Positions 13,981 to 14,263 of a stretch of 36,611 bases of DNA are shown here, one piece after another. The notes beneath the pieces are model-generated. The model did not search any database, was not told the origin of the DNA, and saw only the letters and a program-made list of their open reading frames with translations. This stretch comes from Spirochaetaceae bacterium (GTDB lineage Bacteria; Spirochaetota; Spirochaetia; SZUA-6; Bin103). The translations under genes were made by a program, and so were the position numbers. Numbering within the stretch: the first letter of the stretch is position 1; each line of letters starts with the position of its first letter. The DNA lies in assembly GCA_028821475.1 (NCBI GenBank), contig JAPPGB010000136.1:1-36611 (forward strand), given 5' to 3'.

Positions 13981-14019
13981 TCGCTGCCCGGCAGGCTGGT
14001 GTGCGGCATGCGCGCGTAG
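13981..14019 (+). pseudogene. 3'-end scrap of a D-aminoacylase-family gene
   Basis: SLPGRLVCGMRA and a stop match the end of the amidohydrolase at 11378-13090 ([12 protein letters not shown]), and the similarity continues a few bases past both stops (TAGCCCGA). The copy is diverged, so it came from another paralog or is old. Confidence 0.55.
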
Positions 14020-14041
14020 CCCGAGATACCACGGCGTATCC

Positions 14042-14083
14042 TCACGATGCCAAATCGTCTCACCACAGCGAGGCCAGGAAGAA
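14042..14083 (-). pseudogene. 3'-end scrap of a DUF4143 ATPase gene
   Basis: The minus strand reads FFLASLW, stop, DDLAS, stop, matching the last residues YFLAALWRDDLAS of the ATPase at 2888-4093. The bases beyond the stop (CGTATC-TCACGATGCC) also match that gene's downstream flank. Confidence 0.6.
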
Positions 14084-14084
14084 G

Positions 14085-14130
14085 CGCTTCGTCGACGCGC
14101 GGATGTCGATTCCCGGGCTCCTGTTGCTGC
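14085..14130 (+). pseudogene. Internal scrap of a DppC-like permease gene
   Basis: About 46 nt encode RFVDARMSIPGLLLL, matching RFVDAWMSIPGLLLL of the permease at 9620-10502, with two or three base differences. Confidence 0.65.
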
Positions 14131-14131
14131 G

Positions 14132-14203
14132 GACCCGCTGTTCAACGTTACGCCGCAGCGCGTCTTCTGCACCGTGCAGGCGCGCGCGGCCGACAAGAGA
14201 TGA
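14132..14203 (+). pseudogene. 3'-end scrap of an AlbA_2-type protein gene
   Basis: DPLFNVTPQRVFCTVQARAA, then DKR and a stop, match the C-terminus of the longer remnant at 22372-22633 (PDPLFNV...TPQRVFCTVQARAA). The join to the permease scrap before it is immediate. Confidence 0.6.
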
Positions 14204-14218
14204 CCGCTCCGGGGGCTT

Positions 14219-14263
14219 GTCGTAGTTCAAGTCGAGGTGTTCGGCCGGCGGGAGAGTATCGTG
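14219..14263 (+). pseudogene. N-terminal scrap of a retropepsin-like protease gene
   Basis: VVVQVEVFGRRESIV matches the start of the remnant at 33281 onward (VVVQAEVFGRRGSIV), but the sequence stops before the active-site DTG and runs into the operon B promoter. Confidence 0.45.

Follow-up and report, generated by a model that had tools for sequence, protein, structure and literature searches.

Within the window examined here (the whole of contig C136, positions 1-36,611), short pieces of five genes lie end to end at 13957-14266, flanked on the left by a PIN-like toxin gene and on the right by a dppA promoter, raising the question of how such a composite spacer came about. The first-pass annotation had attributed it to an unexplained process that joins short pieces. 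The surroundings form an array of repeated, same-orientation duplicates of dppABC operons and of amidohydrolase, DUF4143 ATPase, AlbA_2, Uma2 and toxin-antitoxin genes. To define the pieces and their edges, positions 13951-14330 were searched by blastn against the whole genome (5.73 Mb, 183 contigs). From left to right, the locus reads:

13430..13951, + strand: putative PIN-like toxin ORF of a Phd/YefM-type pair (173 aa), functional left border of the mosaic
13957..14026, + strand: P1, 3′ end of an Amidohydro_3 gene including its stop codon and the first bases beyond (blastn)
14027..14041, no strand: ancestral spacer between amidohydrolase and DUF4143 genes, ending CGGCGTATC, shared with contig C84 of the sister species (G002), where it comes after the amidohydrolase end (L048:6574-6623), and with window position 2879, where it comes before the DUF4143 end
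14042..14082, − strand: P2, 3′ end of an AAA_14/DUF4143 ATPase gene (blastn)
14083..14132, + strand: P3, internal piece of dppC (BPD_transp_1; blastn)
14130..14204, + strand: P4, 3′ end of a SLFN_AlbA_2 protein gene, ending DPLFNVTPQRVFCTVQARAADKR and a stop (two overlapping matches)
14203..14266, + strand: P5, 5′ part of a retropepsin-like remnant, beginning VVVQVEVFGRRESIV, with a sole parent in the genome at 33281-33326
14265..14337, + strand: P6, dppA promoter region, following on from 14264/14265, functional right border
14558..16414, + strand: dppA (SBP_bac_5; PF00496, E = 2e-74), downstream of the predicted promoter at 14278-14305

The toxin ORF at the left border sits within a block 92% identical to 21619-22354. 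Its upstream neighbor matched PhdYeFM_antitox in Pfam; the ORF itself had no Pfam match, and an IDTN motif together with its position points to a PIN-like protein. In P1, positions 13976-14024 matched the amidohydrolase 3′ end at 13047-13095 (88% identity, E = 3e-10; parent PF07969, E = 2e-47), and a short gapped similarity followed by eye suggests that the piece probably starts at 13957, immediately 3′ of the PIN-like gene. Positions 14032-14081 matched the DUF4143 3′ end and downstream sequence at 2879-2927 (84%, E = 6e-7; parent PF13635), and P2 was 81% identical to L048:8100-8141 of the sister species. The dppC piece (14083-14135) was 94% identical to 9946-9998 (E = 2e-16), the remaining dppC copies found in the genome matching worse, and its substitutions alter residues of the DppC motif. 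Two AlbA_2 matches, one of 14130-14187 to C174:10530-10473 within a 436-aa AlbA_2 gene (93%, E = 8e-18) and one of 14163-14204 to the true 3′ end of an AlbA_2 gene at 1458-1499 (95%, E = 7e-12), merge into a single 75-bp piece of which C174 supplies the left part and 1458-1499 the 3′ end. Positions 14219-14264 matched the retropepsin-like remnant at 33281-33326 (93%, E = 1e-12); extended by eye, this similarity probably reaches a left edge near 14203. The parental copy, which reads VVVQAEVFGRRGSIVLQLALDTGAT, carries a frameshift of its own; the putative retropepsin assignment derives from an LDTGAT motif in the frameshifted remnant at about 33275-33440, which had no match in a Pfam search. P6 is 86-88% identical to sequence at 23740, 26905 and 33486, with another copy at C174:16541, and carries a predicted promoter (TTGACG, 16 nt, TAGAGT; promoter scan). 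Pfam confirmed the parent families for the amidohydrolase, DUF4143, BPD_transp_1, SBP_bac_5 and SLFN_AlbA_2, and identities between piece and parent are alike across the mosaic (84-95%). The five-piece mosaic described in the first-pass annotation is therefore real in whole-genome blastn (E = 6e-7 to 8e-18), with its pieces and strands correctly listed, and longer members of all five families do occur in the window, as had been stated.

Two of the apparent joins are, by sequence comparison, ancestral neighborhoods, each with a counterpart in the window, in partial form in the first case:

2840..2927, + strand: second boundary of amidohydrolase remnant, spacer and DUF4143 3′ end
33267..33560, + strand: retropepsin remnant in a longer copy, with the dppA promoter directly after it

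The sister species (contig C84, L048:6566-6623) has the amidohydrolase end with the same spacer, breaking off at CGGCGTA, and on this comparison the amidohydrolase/DUF4143 boundary reads as an ancestral gene boundary with no new joint. On the dppA promoter side, the mosaic is without 159 bp (33327-33485) of the longer copy at 33267-33560, and the copy on C174 is without a different 50 bp. Such different erosion of the same ancestral neighbors at each locus matches the prediction of deletion in place. Shared neighbors in ancestral order were seen for these two pairs; for the other joints no intact locus was found, and none of the examined genomes preserved the ancestral order intact over the full set of pieces, this order being compiled from separate loci.

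The mosaic pieces abut without filler, mostly with 1 to 4 bp of microhomology, so that the reported near-absence of bases between them essentially stands after boundary refinement. Across 14 joints from this genome and the sister species, mean breakpoint ambiguity was 2.8 bp compared with 0.93 bp in matched random joints (simulated and given the same treatment; the joint between the PIN-like gene and P1, whose alignment is gapped, lies outside the mean), and microhomology of at least 2 bp occurred at 8 of the 14 joints against an expectation of 24%. In the clearest case, from the sister species, a dppB-to-dppC deletion lies between two 11-bp copies of GATCAACCTGG. Joints at short repeats are what slippage or illegitimate recombination between such repeats typically leaves behind, and filler-free joints with short direct repeats or microhomology are expected if tandem duplicates decay by deletion. 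Shared bases and motifs at the joints had both been put forward as worth seeking; the former are present as this microhomology, and comparison of the joints revealed no common motif.

All self-matches of the contig (108/108, blastn) are direct, 48 of 49 matches between C136 and C174 share one orientation, and every intergenic scrap within 30 kb of its best parent in a 0.49-Mb genome sample has that parent's orientation (21/21). Scraps are concentrated on the array contigs C136 and C174, at 46 to 66 per 100 kb, compared with 5 to 12 per 100 kb on three other large contigs; values were 4.2 in G003 and 1.2 in G025 (all rough densities, based on samples of ∼0.5 Mb for G000 and 0.4 Mb apiece for G003 and G025, with home-made hexamer gene calling). 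The parents are duplicated neighborhood genes, and the enrichment of scars there is as expected for decaying tandem duplicates.

Similar joints and scraps are spread over the dppABC/toxin-antitoxin array, and C174 and the sister species have them too. In-operon deletions of a simple kind occur in the window at 6579 and 24142, the first being:

6579..6580, + strand: joint fusing the start of dppB to the end of dppC in one operon copy

At 24142 a deletion scar fuses the start codon region of dppA with the interior of the gene while keeping the frame (MQLDDIGIESV..), the fusion remaining open as a truncated dppA that runs into later scraps (ORF 23591-24736). Near 8135 an MFS 3′ end is joined to a 3′ part of dppA, and at 4480 a Uma2 start is joined to a dppA leader. 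Positions 21434-21503 (70 bp), isolated with an MFS gene on one side and an antitoxin gene on the other, are 100% identical to the Walker A region of the ATPase gene at 18694-18763, an identity that marks them as a very recent scar or copy. A tandem decamer in the dppA leader, GCTCCGTCCT, is present in 2.6 copies at 14389-14414 and 4.9 copies at 33608-33656, and is possibly a variable-number repeat in the stretch that leads from the promoter to the start codon. The end of C136 (36611) lies inside dppB and that of C174 (18317) in the 3′ end of dppC, in facing orientation; the two contigs may adjoin across an unassembled dppBC repeat.

Relatives offer related scars. By dppA, the closest public relative is a metagenome-assembled Spirochaetaceae bin103 (MPNH01). 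The mosaic as a whole, whose joints had been suggested for comparison with relatives, was absent from 60 of them, single pieces matching in the sister species only, and the composite was likewise absent from both congeners examined. The sister species carries a comparable mosaic (L048:6219-6623) of DUF4143, dppB, dppC, DUF4143 and amidohydrolase pieces. In it, a 30-bp piece of DUF4143 remnant (L048:6439-6470) is inverted in place beside its direct continuation (within L048:6439-6549), which suggests a local strand-switch or a small inversion; one further scrap of this genome (L048:10151-10209) is also inverted. Deletion is thus not the sole process in the array.

What is shown is which genes the pieces come from and how they are oriented, that the joints have microhomology and no filler, that two adjacencies are ancestral, and that comparable scars exist at paralogous and sister loci; on this footing the mosaic is very probably the residue of deletional decay of tandem duplicates through microhomology-associated deletions. 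The interval from the PIN-like gene to the next dppA promoter would once have held a run of redundant gene copies, with an amidohydrolase gene facing a DUF4143 gene, then a dpp operon, an AlbA_2 gene and a retropepsin gene beside the dppA promoter. Most of this run would have been taken out by some five deletions whose ends lay at 0 to 4 bp of microhomology, while those overrunning the functional borders would have been purged by selection, leaving a short neutral spacer of scraps of ∼40 to 75 bp in their original order and orientation. From the scars we infer the complete order of genes in the ancestor, how many steps there were, and the enzymology, be it RecA-independent slippage or illegitimate recombination. 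Since two ancestral adjacencies recur, orientation is that of the parent, and the joints are filler-free and microhomologous as elsewhere in the array, a process that joins short pieces is unsupported; the pieces look instead like in-place survivors of nested deletions. When border-confined deletions were simulated, a residue of 250-380 bp with at least five joints spanning gaps of at least 150 bp arose in 1-69% of runs, an outcome that varies with the deletion-length spectrum and assumes confinement between toxin gene and promoter. Under unlimited large deletions many tiny pieces are unlikely, as new deletions tend to swallow old joints. Unconfined random deletion makes many joints between distant genes in ∼300 bp improbable, and the argument depends on the border constraint. 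The similar identities of the pieces to their parents also count against stepwise deletion, being predicted equally by a single event.

Such an event would be a complex replication error, in which serial slippage or template switching on one strand chained short stretches of nearby genes from the PIN-like gene to the dppA promoter. Common orientation, local parents, short microhomology, absence of filler, and a divergence from the parents that is alike among the pieces would all fit, and the in-place inversion among the scraps of the sister species indicates that strand-switching may occur in the genus. However, an ancestral origin applies to two of the adjacencies, which are common to paralogous and sister loci that bear different deletions, and simple two-ended deletions are both common in the array and sufficient, leaving this reading improbable; it would apply to the joints that have no ancestral counterpart. 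We consider it slightly more doubtful still, as a generality, that spacers in this spirochaete genus arise by single multistep template-switch events that string together short same-strand pieces of neighboring genes; were it so, template switching would yield composite spacers or ORFs within one generation.

Very little probability attaches to an assembly artifact, a contig misjoined from fragments of repeated genes. The assembly is in 183 contigs, some of which end within dpp repeats (C136 in dppB, C174 in dppC), yet the pieces show 5-16% divergence from all other genomic copies and so are not collapsed or misjoined copies. Moreover, five joints in ∼300 bp would fall within single read pairs, and the P1-P2 and P5-P6 adjacencies recur on independent contigs or in another species' assembly. 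It is this divergence, with the two independently recurring adjacencies, that makes misassembly unlikely.

Less probable again is a functional array, in which the pieces are retained to act as antisense or guide-like elements, or to form a regulatory leader. They lie directly upstream of a promoter and their families are present nearby, but the predicted promoter is 3′ of them, placing them outside its transcript, and P3 has amino-acid replacements relative to DppC. The composite has no repeat unit (no tandem repeats were found within the mosaic itself) and no conservation in the two congeners. No Rfam match or tRNA was found in the mosaic, and the three ORFs crossing it had no Pfam match. With no RNA family, protein family or conservation, no function is indicated for the composite.

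The remaining candidates were rejected: a product of mobile elements or site-specific recombination by the lack of a joint motif and, among the window ORFs scanned, of a recombinase at the joints, random copy-paste insertion by the orientation of the matches (about half would be expected in parent orientation), and chance matching, which had been named as a possible refutation, by the genome-wide E-values of 6e-7 to 8e-18. The first-pass view that no transposase or recombinase accounts for the joints was borne out. The sole transposase-like ORF among those scanned is a Transposase_31 (YhgA/Rpn-like) ORF in the array at 25875-26681, 11.6 kb away. This family is linked to RecA-independent recombination in Escherichia coli, and the ORF could be relevant to deletion rate.

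Deletional decay of this kind has known counterparts. Intergenic spacers of the symbionts Rickettsia (PMC2374718) and Buchnera (PMC3164680) hold decaying pseudogenes, deletion-eroded gene remnants that mark the places of lost genes, as the mosaic does; unlike in those, the remnants in the mosaic have paralogues of a duplicated array as their source, so that parents are still present close by and the joints are legible. In maize, fractionation after duplication removes redundant copies piecemeal by short deletions (PMC2893956). Redundant copies at the mosaic locus would have been lost piecemeal in the same manner, although in a bacterial gene array without polyploidy and with several deletions that would exceed gene length. 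The persistence of a short residue between conserved borders resembles border-induced selection, modeled for human introns (PMC9748784), in which a neutral stretch persists because overrunning deletions are purged; it is carried over to the mosaic by analogy and by the simulation.

The mosaic would then be a well-preserved case of normal gene decay that indicates no new mechanism. It also carries a warning, in that gene scraps lying end to end can mimic the product of an assembly process even though they are survivors. For the biology of such loci, it would offer a legible record of the erosion of a bacterial gene array, in which surviving paralogues let the scars be read to the base.
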